From the IMG/VR virus record IMGVR_UViG_3300040801_006091, positions 1 to 23,633 of that record: DNA of 23,633 nt, one strand, 5' to 3'. The notes beneath the pieces were generated by a model. That model searched no databases. It saw nothing but the letters and a program-made list of their open reading frames with translations, and was not told where the DNA came from. A program made the position numbers and the translations under genes. Numbering within the stretch: the first letter of the stretch is position 1; every line of letters begins with the position of its first letter. Positions 6,495 through 23,633 of the stretch are shown here, in pieces. The stretch comes from a virus.

Positions 6495-7526
6495 TTACTT
6501 AGTTTCAGGTTTTCTTAATCCAGCTTCAATAAGCGCGTCATTCGCTGCTTTTTCCGCTTTTTGCGCCGCTGTCAATTCAGGTTTAGCACCTTCCCCGTCA
6601 GCACTTGGGGTTACGTCTTTAGGCGTATCATTTTCAACACCTTTTTTCTGAGCCGCTTTAAGTGCGTTCACTTGGAACTCAGAAATATCAGACGGCTTAA
6701 TTTCTTTTCCGCTTTCAATTCCAGCAATTGCCTTTTCAGGATCAATCTCTTTCCATGCTCCCCACGCTTTTACACGCTCAGATTCTTTTTCAACGCCGTT
6801 TTCTACGCCGCTATCAAACACCTGAGCATACAATGCTGGGTGCTTCTCTTTCAACTCTTTTACAGTCATATTTGTATTTGTTTCAGGATTATCCTCTTTT
6901 TGGTTTGGTGATTTTGGCGCCTCAACAGTAATATCACCGTCGTAAGATGCTGCCAATTTTGCTACACTGTTAATTTCAGCCGCTTTTTTCGGTGTGATTT
7001 TCTCAATTTTAGAGATCAAACCTACTTTTTTAGCTTCTTGAGCCGTCAAAAATACGTCGATTCTATCCTCCATTGAAAAAATATCCTTCACTTTAACGCC
7101 TTTCAACTCCTCGAATTTTTTAACGTCAATTTTATTTCGAAGCGCTTTTTCGAGTGATGAATTGATCGACTGAACGTTTTCAAGCATACCGGGATTGTAA
7201 TATTCTGAATCTGGATTAAAATAAAAATCCTCAACCCAACTTGAATATGCTGCACGGTGAATTAAAAAACGCGAAACATCAAGTGCCGTAACATTGTCGG
7301 CATACATTGCGATAAATGCACCCATTGAATAGGCTTTGCCGTCAACCTTAACGTTTTTAGTGCCATCAAACTCTTTAAATTTAGCTACCATTCCCCAACC
7401 GTATTCAGGCTCACCTCCATCCGTATTAATACGAACAGTGATTTCCCCGTCAGCCTCATTCATTGAATTAATGAACTCAGTTGCGGTCAAAGAATTGATA
7501 CCACCATATATAAGAATTTCACTCAT
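6495..7526 (-). CDS. ClpP-like prohead protease with C-terminal scaffold
   Basis: 343 residues. Residues 1-180 are a ClpP/S49-type serine protease: substrate-groove strand ITVRINTDGG, nucleophile Ser67 in KAYSMGAF, His90 in RFLIHRAAY, and the LTAQEAKKVGLI segment that ends this fold. Residues about 210-343 are charged and helical, as in a scaffold domain (TVKELKEKHPALYAQVFDSG onwards). The arrangement matches lambda gpC/Nu3, where an internal start makes free scaffold; Met220 (ATG at 6869) could serve that way. First gene of the head unit, with its own promoter region containing the 29-bp late box. Confidence 0.85.
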   Translation of the reverse strand: MSEILIYGGINSLTATEFINSMNEADGEITVRINTDGGEPEYGWGMVAKFKEFDGTKNVKVDGKAYSMGAFIAMYADNVTALDVSRFLIHRAAYSSWVEDFYFNPDSEYYNPGMLENVQSINSSLEKALRNKIDVKKFEELKGVKVKDIFSMEDRIDVFLTAQEAKKVGLISKIEKITPKKAAEINSVAKLAASYDGDITVEAPKSPNQKEDNPETNTNMTVKELKEKHPALYAQVFDSGVENGVEKESERVKAWGAWKEIDPEKAIAGIESGKEIKPSDISEFQVNALKAAQKKGVENDTPKDVTPSADGEGAKPELTAAQKAEKAANDALIEAGLRKPETK

Positions 7527-7533
7527 TGGTGTA

Positions 7534-7585
7534 AAAATATAGGTTTATAAATATTTGTTTTTTATTTATGCCTATTTTCGGCATA
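7534..7585 (-). promoter_or_regulatory. Late promoter region with palindromic box, copy 1 (head unit)
   Basis: Palindrome TATGCC-N7-GGCATA at 7567-7585, extended by ten further bases to 7557. These 29 bases match the copy at 22025-22053 at 27 positions. A -7-like element TATATTTT lies on the - strand at 7541-7534, 16 bp downstream of the box and 8 bases before the protease ATG. There is no clear TTTG -33 element, which suggests activation by a protein at the palindrome. Confidence 0.6.
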
Positions 7586-7592
7586 TTAATAT

Positions 7593-7600
7593 TATATTTG
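7593..7600 (+). promoter_or_regulatory. -7 element (TATATTTG) of the moron promoter
   Basis: An exact TAnnTTTG, the Bacteroidota -7 consensus, eight bases after the palindrome and five bases before the moron ATG at 7605. The palindrome would cover the -33 position, as expected for repression. The closeness to the ATG implies a leaderless or nearly leaderless transcript if this element is used. Confidence 0.45.
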
Positions 7601-7604
7601 GGGT

Positions 7605-7973
7605 ATGGAAGTAAATAAATTAAGAATAGGGAATTGGATTGAAATTGGAATTGAAAAAGGTAAGGTGATTGAAATTTCACAAGACAATTGCTTAAAAATA
7701 AATATCAATAATAAAGAAAACATTTCTGCACCAAATGAGAGGTTTGACCCTATCCCACTAACAAAGGAATGGCTTGAGAAGTTTGGGTTTGTCATGGATA
7801 CTTATTGCTATTTTCATTTAGATGATATTATAGGTAAGTTCGATATTCTCATGGATGATGACAAGTTTTTTGCTTTAAAATTATGTAAAATCAAATACGT
7901 CCACCAACTCCAAAACTTATACTTCGCGCTAACTGGCGAGGAACTGAAAATACAGAACCAATGCAAGAAATAA
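7605..7973 (+). CDS. Moron: conserved Bacteroidota phage hypothetical protein
   Basis: 122 residues. The N-terminus LRIGNWIEIG, the middle PIPLTKEWLEKFGF, and the C-terminal KYVHQLQNLYFALTGEEL (98-115) form a pattern I recognise from many uncharacterised Bacteroidota phage and prophage proteins. The function is unknown. It lies on the opposite strand to the late genes, interrupting them between portal and protease, and its end overlaps the next gene by 13 nt. The start is fixed by the conserved RIGN segment near the N-terminus. Expression is probably independent of the late operon. Confidence 0.75.
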   Translation: MEVNKLRIGNWIEIGIEKGKVIEISQDNCLKININNKENISAPNERFDPIPLTKEWLEKFGFVMDTYCYFHLDDIIGKFDILMDDDKFFALKLCKIKYVHQLQNLYFALTGEELKIQNQCKK

Positions 7974-8272
7974 GACTTCGTGCCGTCCCCGAAAACCTGC
8001 ATAGGGATTTATTAGACATAATGGATTTCGAAACAAAAACCGCTCCTGAGTTTTTACGCCCTATGCTTAACGATATTTTGGATGATTATTCTGAGGACAT
8101 CAAAAAAAACATGTCGATAGGAAACAAAAAACACATTCGTATAACAGGGGTATCACCTAAAAAACACCAGCAATTAATAAATATAGCTAGTCATTTAGGC
8201 ATAACGGTAGAGCAATTAATAAAAACTCACATGCAAAAAGTAGTTGAGGAATATCCTATAAAGTTTAGGTAG
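7961..8272 (+). CDS. Moron: tandem ribbon-helix-helix-like DNA-binding protein
   Basis: 103 residues made of two similar halves. Residues 4-43 align without gaps to 59-98 (offset 55): IRLRAVPENL against IRITGVSPKK, then Leu/Ile/Thr/Tyr positions L17-L72, I20-I75, T27-T82, Y43-Y98, with many conservative pairs. Each half has a short IRxxxV strand followed by two helices, as in Arc/MetJ-type ribbon-helix-helix proteins, which bind operators as dimers. Here one chain would carry both halves. It is co-transcribed with the upstream moron gene, and the palindrome at 7567-7585 lies just before that operon, making it a candidate operator. Confidence 0.6.
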   Translation: MQEIRLRAVPENLHRDLLDIMDFETKTAPEFLRPMLNDILDDYSEDIKKNMSIGNKKHIRITGVSPKKHQQLINIASHLGITVEQLIKTHMQKVVEEYPIKFR

Positions 8273-20453: not shown

Positions 20454-21965
20454 TTATGATCCGAAATTAAAACCTGCCTGAACAGTTGTTGATGCAATTC
20501 TCACCGTTCCTGTACGCTTATACTTGAAGAACGTTTCCAGTCGATCTGGATTAGTCCCCGAAATATTGACGACAATTGAATCCTGCATAAATGGAGCGTC
20601 TGCAATTAACGCTCTACGCGACAAATCATCTGCGTACTCATCGATAACAGCTGTCCACGTCTTAGGTTTAACAACATTTGAAGCCGTCACAATATCATCA
20701 TCGTTACTGATTGAATGATCAATTACGTAAATATCCTGAAGTAAGTAGTAACCGAACTTCACATTGAAATCAATCATTAAATTACGTGGGTATCTGAATT
20801 GTGGCGGAACCTCACCAACAGGATGGTAAGTAGTTACAAAGTCCTCCACCTTATATTGACCAGACGACAACGTTACTGTCGAATTTCCTTTTTTTACGTA
20901 TGCGTCACGATTATTGTAATCTGACATCGTTCCAATCAACGTTGGTGTAGGCATATCTGGATATTTATTACCCGCAACATCCAGGTTTGGAGTATCCTGA
21001 GCAATATTAGCAAACAAGACAGTCATGTTTGCAGCAGCCTCTAATGGGTGACCTTTAGAAAGCGGTGCTGGTGCTACTGCGTTTGTAACCTCAGTTTTTC
21101 TTGCGTCAGTAATTGTTGTGTCGTTGTCAGCAACCGATCCTGCAATTGCGATAAATGGACGCATGATAATTCCAGTATAACGACCAGTTGGCGTTGTTGG
21201 ATCAGGTTTACCGTTGAAAGTTTCTAATTCATTTAACGTCGCAGTAACCAACCCGTAAGTATTCAGAACAATTGTATTCCAATCATCACCGAAGTTATTC
21301 AACGCTGCTGTTAAGGTTGGAGTTCCTGACCCTGTAGCTGTTTCAGCAATAGCATAAGTAAGTGCCGCATCCTCATCACCTGTATCAACCGAAACGGTTA
21401 AATCTTGAGAGGTAAGTCCTGCCCATTTAGCCGTCAAAGTAACAACTCCTAATGCGGATGAGGCTGTAAAAGGGCAACCAAGAACATTATTTATAACATC
21501 CGTTATTTTAGTTGCTACTTGTGTAGCTGTATCACCGTCCTCGATGTTAACACCATACGAATCGCCGTCAAGAATATAACGTCCACCAATAACCACTGTA
21601 TGAGTCGTATTAGCGTCAGCCGTACCTGTAACGGTAATAGTTTGCTCGTTAGCAACAGCTCCAGCAGCTTCTTCTTGAGAATAAACGATTGTAGGAATAC
21701 CCCCAACTCCACCAGCGTTAGGACGTAAAATACGCATCGCCATATGAATTGGCGAACCGTAACCATAAATTTCACCAGCCTGTTGAGCTGATGTTATTTC
21801 TTTTGGTTCATCAAACGTTACCGTTCCTTGATTTGCTGTGTTTGCTTCTCCTAGAATTGCGATTCTCTGAGGCAAGTTTGGAGTTGTATTTGAAAAATCC
21901 CCTTTGATTATTTTATAACCAACTACTCGGGAAATTCTTTCAGTGCCTACTGCATTACTCGACAT
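20454..21965 (-). CDS. Contractile tail sheath protein
   Basis: 503 residues. It carries the sheath pattern: LPQRIAILGEANTANQGTVT, ITSAQQAGEIYGYGSPIHMA, MRILRPNAGGVGGIPTIVYS in the N-terminal third, a variable insertion (about 110-230, protruding domain), and a C-terminal domain with FKYKRTGTVRIAS. It forms the outer contractile layer. It is the first gene of the tail unit, immediately downstream of the late promoter region at 22000-22053. Length is typical of Mu gpL-type sheaths. Confidence 0.88.
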   Translation of the reverse strand: MSSNAVGTERISRVVGYKIIKGDFSNTTPNLPQRIAILGEANTANQGTVTFDEPKEITSAQQAGEIYGYGSPIHMAMRILRPNAGGVGGIPTIVYSQEEAAGAVANEQTITVTGTADANTTHTVVIGGRYILDGDSYGVNIEDGDTATQVATKITDVINNVLGCPFTASSALGVVTLTAKWAGLTSQDLTVSVDTGDEDAALTYAIAETATGSGTPTLTAALNNFGDDWNTIVLNTYGLVTATLNELETFNGKPDPTTPTGRYTGIIMRPFIAIAGSVADNDTTITDARKTEVTNAVAPAPLSKGHPLEAAANMTVLFANIAQDTPNLDVAGNKYPDMPTPTLIGTMSDYNNRDAYVKKGNSTVTLSSGQYKVEDFVTTYHPVGEVPPQFRYPRNLMIDFNVKFGYYLLQDIYVIDHSISNDDDIVTASNVVKPKTWTAVIDEYADDLSRRALIADAPFMQDSIVVNISGTNPDRLETFFKYKRTGTVRIASTTVQAGFNFGS

Positions 21966-21999: not shown

Positions 22000-22053
22000 C
22001 AAAAATAAAGCGATTTAAACCAGCGTTTTTTGTTTATGCCTTTTTTCGGCATA
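22000..22053 (-). promoter_or_regulatory. Late promoter region with palindromic box, copy 2 (tail unit)
   Basis: Palindrome TATGCC-N7-GGCATA at 22035-22053 with the same ten-base extension (to 22025) as copy 1. A consensus -7 element TATTTTTG lies on the - strand at 22007-22000, 18 bp from the box and about 35 bases before the sheath ATG. The -33 position lacks TTTG, as in copy 1, so activation by a bound protein is likely. Confidence 0.65.
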
Positions 22054-22126
22054 AAATAATAAAACCGATTGAAATTGATTATGTTTACGCAGGTGTTATT
22101 TTAATAATTAGTTATTTTTTAGTTTT

Positions 22127-22163
22127 AATCCGATTGTCGCCAGATGATCGGATTTTTTTTTTT
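22127..22163 (+). terminator. Rho-independent terminator on the + strand
   Basis: Arms AATCCGAT (22127-22134) and ATCGGATT (22147-22154) with a 12-nt loop, followed by T at 22153-22163. On the + strand it is a textbook terminator. No + strand gene that it could end is visible between it and the sheath promoter, so it may end an unidentified small RNA, or read-through on this strand, or be a remnant near the phage end. Confidence 0.65.
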
Positions 22164-22271
22164 GCCCGCATAAATCCCGTTCGTTGTCGCCCACAAATGT
22201 TCAGCCAAAGAAAACGTTTAACTCGTCAGAGGTAAAGGATTTTTCGACGCTGATAAAAATAAAATGGAAGG

Positions 22272-22490
22272 ATGGAGGAAATTACAAAAGTGGTATTTGT
22301 ACCAACAAAAGATTTTTCAATAATAAAAGAAATTCAAAATCAATTAAGACTAACTGGTTACACTGGTATTAGTTGAAGGATAAATGGATACGGAAGTGGA
22401 CATAACTTTATTGTGTCATCGACAGATAATAATCTCTTGACAGAATATATTCGGCACCTCCAATCTGTACAAGAACGGTTGATTGATTAA
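22272..22490 (+). pseudogene. Small gene with in-frame TGA, function unknown
   Basis: From ATG 22272 the frame reads MEEITKVVFVPTKDFS, IIKEIQNQLRLTGYTGIS, then TGA at 22374-22376 (codon 35), then INGYGSGHNFIVSSTDNN and YIRHLQSVQERLID, TAA at 22488-22490. The composition on both sides of the TGA looks protein-like and continuous. A TGG to TGA change (Trp in GISWRING) would explain it. The TGA is more likely a nonsense mutation than recoding, because TGA ends other genes here. I do not recognise the family. It could be host DNA flanking the prophage or a phage gene. Confidence 0.4.
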
Positions 22491-22811
22491 TTGATTTTAC
22501 CAAATAATTACTTTGTTTATACTTATATTTTGATAATATCCTCAAATAAACAATTAAAATCTGCTTCCTAATAAACCAATACAATTTCATAGTGGACGTT
22601 CTTTGTGCGGCTATTTAACATAATATTAATTATAAGACAAAAGTATTGTTTATTTAATTGAGAACATTACAATCATATCATTCCTATAACGCTGATGAAG
22701 AAATCTCAAGTATAACTTCCCATTTAACTATTATCATTTTAATCGCGCGCGCTCCTATTAAATCAATTTACCTTTAGCCTAATTGTTCATTTAAATTATT
22801 TTTCATTCCAA
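22491..22811. other. 320-nt AT-rich intergenic region
   Basis: No convincing gene on either strand; the short - strand frame at 22408-22590 lies antisense to the broken gene and looks spurious. AT-rich with scattered TTTG and TATA-like words but no convincing -33/-7 pair. A short GC-rich patch (CGCGCGCG at about 22744) stands out. A phage/host junction could lie here or just left of here, but no target duplication or terminal repeat is visible. Confidence 0.5.
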
Positions 22812-23633
22812 ATGCTAAATATTATGAAGATAGCTAAACGTATAGTTTCATTATTCATCGCTGTATCTCTGGTAACTTCTTGTGCACTGATCGAAGAGAA
22901 AACGAATGGATTAAATAAGTTAGATCCCGAAAATGTAATAGAAGTTTCAGATATTACTGAGAATTATAGTTATTTCACAGTTTTTGCTGATGCTGAATTT
23001 GATCATACGAATGCTTTTGGTTTACATATAAAGTACGGTTCAATGCGTTTTCGTAGTCTTGATGTCATGAGTAACTATAATATTGCTGGTGGGATTGCTT
23101 TTACAAATAATATAACTGGTCGCGATATAAATTTTGACAATTTCGATGGTAGTAACCTATTGACCTATAGAGCAACCTATAGTTATCCAATATTTTCGAA
23201 ACTCCGTAAAAAAAGGTTTCCTACTCCGATCCAACAAACAACAAATAATAATTCTAGTCAGAAATTTACTCAAGAATCTACTGGTAAACTGCTTTATAGC
23301 GACAGATATCTTGTTGATAACCTTAGTGTCAGTCTAGGATTTGAAAGTGTTTTTACTGGTTTTAGATCAGATGATAGATTGGCTTATGGTTTTCCAGAAT
23401 TTAACAATGATCCAATGGATTATTTTGCAAGCGATTATTTTGCAATTTACAGCAATACTCAATTTTTAACTGCCGGGATGAAACTTAGTCGATTAGTAAA
23501 TTCAGTTATAAATGTGAAGTTAGATGGCGAAGAATATAACGGTCATTTTTTATCTATTCTTGATCTTGGTCTTAATGTTTTGGTGGTACTTCAACCCAAG
23601 TTAATTCCTTTGAATTTAATGAAGGTGCTATGA
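22812..23633 (+). CDS. SpII lipoprotein of unknown function, probably frameshifted at the end
   Basis: 273 residues to a TGA at the last window base. ATG at 22812, or Met5 at 22824 as the more usual start for the signal peptide. The signal (IAKRIVSLFIAVSLVTSC) ends in a lipobox V-T-S-C at Cys24, so an outer-membrane or periplasmic lipoprotein is predicted. The body is beta-rich with alternating strands (YFTVFADAEFDHT, ADYFAIYSNTQFL-like) and an asparagine-rich loop. No family recognised. Near 23578-23581 a four-T run seems to lack one T: the frame with five T continues as NVFGGTSTQVNSFEFNEGAM without a stop to the window end, more protein-like than the present LVVLQPKLIPLN tail. The gene thus probably continues beyond the window. 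Confidence 0.6.
   Translation: MLNIMKIAKRIVSLFIAVSLVTSCALIEEKTNGLNKLDPENVIEVSDITENYSYFTVFADAEFDHTNAFGLHIKYGSMRFRSLDVMSNYNIAGGIAFTNNITGRDINFDNFDGSNLLTYRATYSYPIFSKLRKKRFPTPIQQTTNNNSSQKFTQESTGKLLYSDRYLVDNLSVSLGFESVFTGFRSDDRLAYGFPEFNNDPMDYFASDYFAIYSNTQFLTAGMKLSRLVNSVINVKLDGEEYNGHFLSILDLGLNVLVVLQPKLIPLNLMKVL

Follow-up and report, generated by a model that had tools for sequence, protein, structure and literature searches.

Mor and C of phage Mu and Ogr of phage P2 are phage-encoded activators that bind just upstream of several late promoters. The late gene control proposed here for a Bacteroidota phage shares this principle, but Mor/C and Ogr have other folds and act with the sigma-70 of E. coli rather than with sigma-ABfr, and their genes are not divergent from a head protease gene. 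To our knowledge, their sites are shared across relatives. Arc and Mnt of phage P22 are small phage ribbon-helix-helix (RHH) proteins that act on a phage promoter via dyad operators, and in size, likely fold and type of operator they resemble the regulator proposed here. They repress, however, and do so in one control region; neither duplicated late operators nor a fixed register upstream is part of their systems, and activation is proposed here. In the lambdoid cI groups, the regulator and several operators diverge together such that each phage acquires its own specificity, as in the phages studied here; that divergence concerns lysogeny and superinfection immunity, whereas the sites described below belong to operons of structural genes. 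AvtR of Acidianus filamentous virus 6 is a tandem RHH protein with autorepressor activity that can also activate a neighboring gene (PMC5569661). Like the protein discussed below, it is encoded by a virus, contains two RHH units per chain and has imperfect inverted-repeat sites, but its eight potential sites are conserved across its genus (PMC5569661), it works with the archaeal transcription machinery and it is not a switch of head and tail operons. By analogy, the switch proposed here would be most like AvtR, in the role of Mor/C or Ogr.

The window, the entire 23,633-base virus record that was analyzed, contains the dyad TATGCC-N7-GGCATA without mismatches at exactly two sites, 7567-7585 and 22035-22053, and no further copy was found in the whole record. 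When up to three mismatches were allowed, five matches were obtained as compared to 7.1 expected in shuffled sequences, so that the three additional matches are at chance level. Each dyad is part of a 29-bp box, a putative operator. Box 1 (7557-7585, minus strand; dyad center at 7576, followed by an A-tract extension) is located upstream of the head operon, the first gene of which encodes the head maturation protease (6495-7526, minus strand). Box 2 (22025-22053, minus strand; dyad center at 22044) is located upstream of the tail operon, which begins with the tail sheath gene (20454-21965, minus strand). The boxes are identical at 27 of 29 positions and are oriented alike relative to the minus-strand late operons. 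A preliminary description of this DNA had reported the two boxes, their common orientation and the lack of a third copy, all of which the search of the window and the record bore out. The most likely function of the boxes is to bind a small, virus-encoded switch protein by which head and tail genes are activated in concert.

The positions of the boxes relative to the promoters are exact. Sequences that conform to the -7 element TAnnTTTG of sigma-ABfr promoters precede the head operon (TATTTTTA, 7532-7539, minus strand, 5 nt before the ATG of the protease gene), the tail operon (TATTTTTG, 22000-22007, minus strand) and the divergently transcribed regulator gene pair (TATATTTG, 7593-7600, plus strand), and most relatives have elements close to the consensus. 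At both late promoters the dyad center is 36.5 bp from the -7 element and the 29-bp box is 17 bp from it, which replaces the distances of 16 and 18 bp given previously. If the T of TAnnTTTG is placed at -12 (PMC6847099), the late-side dyad centers lie at about -48.5 and the 19-bp dyad covers about -39 to -58; the dyads of the late promoters are therefore upstream of the -33 region, not on it. At the divergent promoter, the dyad center is 16.5 bp upstream of TATATTTG, and box 1 spans the spacer and the -33 region, as had been claimed. A -33 element TTG/TTTG was found in only one of 22 late promoters, with shuffled sequences yielding 9%. Its absence is weak evidence, because the -33 region is also weak in ordinary Flavobacterium promoters (PMC6847099); in light of that study, the missing -33 element was dropped as proof of activation.

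The same geometry recurs in the relatives. In 49 RHH-protease intergenic regions, where dyads and -7 elements were picked independently of each other, a distance of 36.5 bp from the dyad center to the -7 element was obtained in 17 regions, and any other value in at most three. With exact 4-bp arms separated by N9, the distance of 36.5 bp was found in 18 of 43 cases on the protease side (other distances in at most four) and in 8 of 32 on the sheath side (other distances in at most three). The dyad and the -7 element are separated by an A/T tract, with a GC content of 13% between 17 and 26 bp ahead of the -7 element. Both late operons are preceded by the site, at a distance suited to an activator. 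Toward the regulator gene, the distance is smaller and less fixed (half of the significant dyads fall at 14.5-19.5 bp), which puts the dyad over the spacer and the -33 region of the regulator promoter itself. Rigid spacing on the late side and loose spacing on the regulator side fit activation and occlusion, respectively, and we infer that a rigid upstream site at the late operons combined with a loose overlapping site at the regulator gene is what would be expected of a self-repressing late activator.

Most known RHH regulators repress, and PHROG labels some members of the family found here Arc-like repressors. An RHH protein might accordingly silence all three promoters in an Arc-like manner during lysogeny or early infection, until repression is lifted when the late phase begins. 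The overlap of the box with the RHH promoter would suit such a function. The late-side dyads, however, are positioned farther upstream than the core promoter, with a rigid spacing of 36.5 bp, and a fixed register is needed for contact with the polymerase but not for occlusion, so that we regard repression of the late operons as unlikely.

The idea that the boxes act as intrinsic terminators, or insulate the late operons as RNA hairpins, has very little to commend it. In three relatives (G027, G028 and G023), a T-run follows the dyad in the late direction, but among 22 cases A-runs after the dyad are about as frequent as T-runs (six versus seven), the box of the window is followed by an A-tract, and the box is upstream of the predicted transcription start. 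Moreover, the direct-repeat boxes of G006 and G438 (see below) are not hairpins of this type.

In most relatives, the -7 element of the protease promoter is only about 4-11 nt ahead of the ATG, which predicts a leaderless or near-leaderless mRNA of the head operon. The sheath leader is usually 14-50 nt long. Transcripts of F. johnsoniae are mostly leadered (PMC6847099).

The relatives were gathered by similarity of the sheath and of the protease, in a search seeded with the window's own proteins; the frequencies given are therefore valid for this clade only. For each of 37 phages, the 150 bp upstream of the sheath gene was compared with the 150 bp upstream of the protease gene, and the phage's own pair was scored, without gaps, against all 1,332 cross-phage pairs. 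Where an RHH gene is divergent from the protease gene, the own pair exceeded the 99th percentile of the cross-phage pairs in 26 of 31 cases and the highest cross-phage pair in 16 of 31. Among phages without a divergent RHH gene, this percentile was exceeded by one of six (G020). Most relatives have a box of their own at both places, and also a variant of their own of the proposed switch protein; the spelling of the box usually differs from phage to phage, but some spellings are common to relatives, such as TTACC-N7-GGTAA in both L125 and L003. In most of the remaining five RHH phages, pairs are recognizable by eye: G439/G441 and G010 contain TTCC-N9-GGAA with differing spacers, and G016 and G021 have weaker pairs. 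The ungapped score underrates G010, G439 and G441 because only the arms are kept, and anchoring to the dyad and the -7 element was added since such scoring ranks boxes too low when they are inverted or differ in the spacer. The box is confined to the two sites in the larger records G027 (48.7 kb), G450 (51.7 kb) and G025 (28.8 kb), as it is in the window.

A few phages are without a clear dyad. The boxes of G019, G024, G031, G006 and G438 are not dyads but AT-rich or composed of direct repeats. G006 contains a repeat of nearly 60 bp at both places, which is unlike the box of the window. Boxes of 11-bp direct repeats precede both late operons, with about five units in G438 (L130 upstream of the protease gene, L190 upstream of the sheath gene) and three units in G006 (L023, 6897-6955; L024, 181-237). 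Both a clear box and an RHH gene are missing from G030.

Conservation of the box sequence is a different matter. When 2.9 million viral contigs (IMG/VR) were searched for the extended box, four matches were obtained, all of them in coding sequences of unrelated phages, and sequence conservation was rejected as a test for this reason. A search of the first eight relatives for the box with two mismatches resulted in noise, and about 400 genomes of the phylum, when scanned, revealed no prophage beyond one already known. The preliminary description had recommended a search for the box in relatives and had taken a lack of conservation as grounds for dismissal. The search succeeded in that position, pairing and geometry are conserved, but it failed for the box sequence, which usually is not; since the layout is kept and the sequence is not, the proposed test would have wrongly discarded a true finding. 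The lesson for method is to seek a conserved position and a sequence paired within a genome, not a sequence conserved between genomes. The paired boxes of the relatives support the claim that a phage regulator is shared by both late units.

Pairing could also arise if the boxes were recombination seams at module boundaries, kept alike by gene conversion. In G011, G023, G031, G438 and G445, identity extends over roughly 70-95 bp, including the promoter. Many phages, however, retain little beyond the dyad (G439/G441, G010), the box is inverted in some (G014, G026, G033), and neither the fixed register with the -7 element nor the link to the RHH gene is explained by conversion, which makes this origin of the pairs highly improbable.

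Box 1 is adjoined by a divergent gene pair. The first gene (7605-7973, plus strand) encodes a 122-residue protein of phrog_10066, a family annotated without a function; in several relatives, homologues are found near the terminase or the sheath region. The second gene (7961-8272, plus strand) encodes a 103-residue protein with tandem RHH units, the proposed box-binding regulator. Nearly all relatives with the gene order sheath-tail-portal-protease-capsid encode a protein of 55-120 residues divergent from the protease, usually separated from it by 55-110 bp, with the box in between. RHH units are strand-helix-helix elements of about 45 residues in which the strand has an alternating pattern. 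In alignments, the RHH pattern of a strand (typically EIRIxxVP), a helix, a turn with G and a second helix is clear. A profile of the proteins of 13 relatives, from which the window protein was excluded, recovered the window protein at both repeats with E values of 1.3e-16 and 1.8e-10. Matches to libraries were weak and many were of the RHH kind: no curated RHH family model reached its cut-off, the best Pfam models being RHH_5, HicB and FitA-like_RHH (E about 0.004), the PHROG Arc-like repressor was matched at 8e-5 by three of the 13, and the profile matched 4hv0 (AvtR) weakly (E 0.006), with no alignable kinship beyond that match. The AF2 monomer model has two helices per unit and no strand. 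In a Foldseek search with the window model, 9f0x_G and 9f0z_E scored best, followed lower down by single-chain Arc (1u9p; TM 0.56-0.59); TM over all these matches was 0.54-0.61, with E >1. The chains 9f0x_G and 9f0z_E belong to the F-plasmid relaxosome and are assumed here to represent TraY, which has tandem RHH units. Foldseek with the model of a single RHH unit gave nothing useful. From its sequence pattern and its position, the window protein likely belongs to the RHH (MetJ/Arc/CopG) superfamily.

The relatives in which the head genes come first and the sheath later (L043, L062, L084, L006 and phage FCV-1, L026) were not matched by the RHH profile, and the four with usable upstream pairs are without a box pair; the switch seems to go along with the gene order. 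The RHH gene is a near-constant neighbor of the box in this clade and not a moron, as it had been called: because it is found in most relatives of the same order and is absent from the head-first ones, it looks like a core regulator. The physical link between late control and the divergent gene pair, by contrast, was upheld. Classification of the phage as Mu-like was not supported either, since G006, a relative that shares the layout, encodes a tyrosine integrase as well as a terminase of the lambda-gpA type. No Mu-type gene (DDE transposase A/B) was among the proteins scanned in the window, which is a fragment.

Of the binders proposed at the outset, which also included the XRE protein encoded at 666-827, the RHH protein is by far the best candidate. 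The boxes might nevertheless be bound by another protein of the phage or the host, with the RHH gene as a linked passenger. G020 contains a box pair and no recognized RHH gene, and the XRE protein is an alternative DNA-binding candidate. A host factor is unlikely because the boxes differ between phages, and any passenger role is hard to reconcile with the joint occurrence of box pair and RHH gene (26 of 31 versus one of six) and with RHH strand residues that track the half-site; we consider it quite improbable.

This tracking was seen as follows. In phages with TCC half-sites (e.g., TTCC-N9-GGAA), the two outward strand positions are [E/D]-x-R in 13 of 13 single-RHH phages, whereas in those with TGT half-sites (G011, L172, L155, L163 and G018) the RHH strand carries [R/K/Q]-x-[V/L] in five of five. 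The association of the TCC and TGT classes with the residues has a Fisher p value of 1.2e-4, for classes set by eye after the data had been seen. In relatives with tandem units like those of the window, the strand of the second unit reads KHI[R/Q]I where the box is ATGCC or TTTGCC, and KEILL where it is TTACC. In an RHH tree built without the strand, which is poorly resolved, the TGT group is scattered, implying three to four changes. The covariation supports the RHH protein as the binder but is not proof. RHH proteins contact dyads or tandem repeats of DNA via the strand, a trait to which the covariation and the 11-bp direct repeats of G006 and G438 point indirectly.

We therefore favor, with good though not full confidence, a model in which the boxes are RHH operators and the RHH protein activates both late operons and represses its own gene. 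The RHH protein would bind to both boxes and, positioned at about -48.5 in fixed register with the -7 element, would recruit the host sigma-ABfr RNA polymerase. Recruitment would switch on the tail operon, from the sheath gene, and the head operon, from the protease gene, together. Box 1, when occupied across the regulator's spacer and -33 region, would shut off synthesis of the regulator. The recognition sequence would diverge fast between phages, with both operators and the DNA-facing strand changing together, and this joint change would keep the late switch of each phage private. Somewhat more cautiously, we think it probable that the clade possesses very small, fast-diversifying RHH proteins that activate the Bacteroidota sigma-ABfr promoter. 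Each would have a pair of operators to itself at one fixed position, about -48.5, and be autorepressed via one of them, and together they would amount to a natural collection of regulators matched in specificity to their operators.

The control of late transcription in tailed phages of Bacteroidota appears to be little described; the open-access literature searched yielded no such description and mentioned neither RHH late activators of tailed phages nor late operators that diverge between phages yet are paired within each. A named candidate regulator, its putative sites and their exact geometry are now supplied. The dozens of candidate regulator-operator pairs, in which the layout is constant and the sequence is swapped, are useful for learning the RHH recognition code and for orthogonal switches in Bacteroidota. 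They also raise the question why an operator of the lytic phase changes so fast, one possibility being escape from cross-activation by co-resident prophages.

In G020, a 56-residue basic ORF (L057:3172-3342) follows the phrog_10066 homologue, which thus neighbors this ORF in G020 and the RHH gene in the window; the ORF possibly encodes a divergent replacement regulator. In the window, the terminase gene that precedes the sheath gene in many relatives is missing from 22054-23633. Instead, this region holds a stretch of about 750 bp, in which a hairpin (about 22128-22170) resembles a terminator, and a gene for a lipoprotein-like product (22812-23633) that matched neither PHROG nor Pfam. In L005, L015, L016 and L057, genes that resemble those of glycosyltransferases and acetyltransferases, most of them on the other strand, form a block between the terminase and sheath genes, adjoining box 2. 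These functions are guessed from sequence; the block may mark a cargo site beside the tail promoter.
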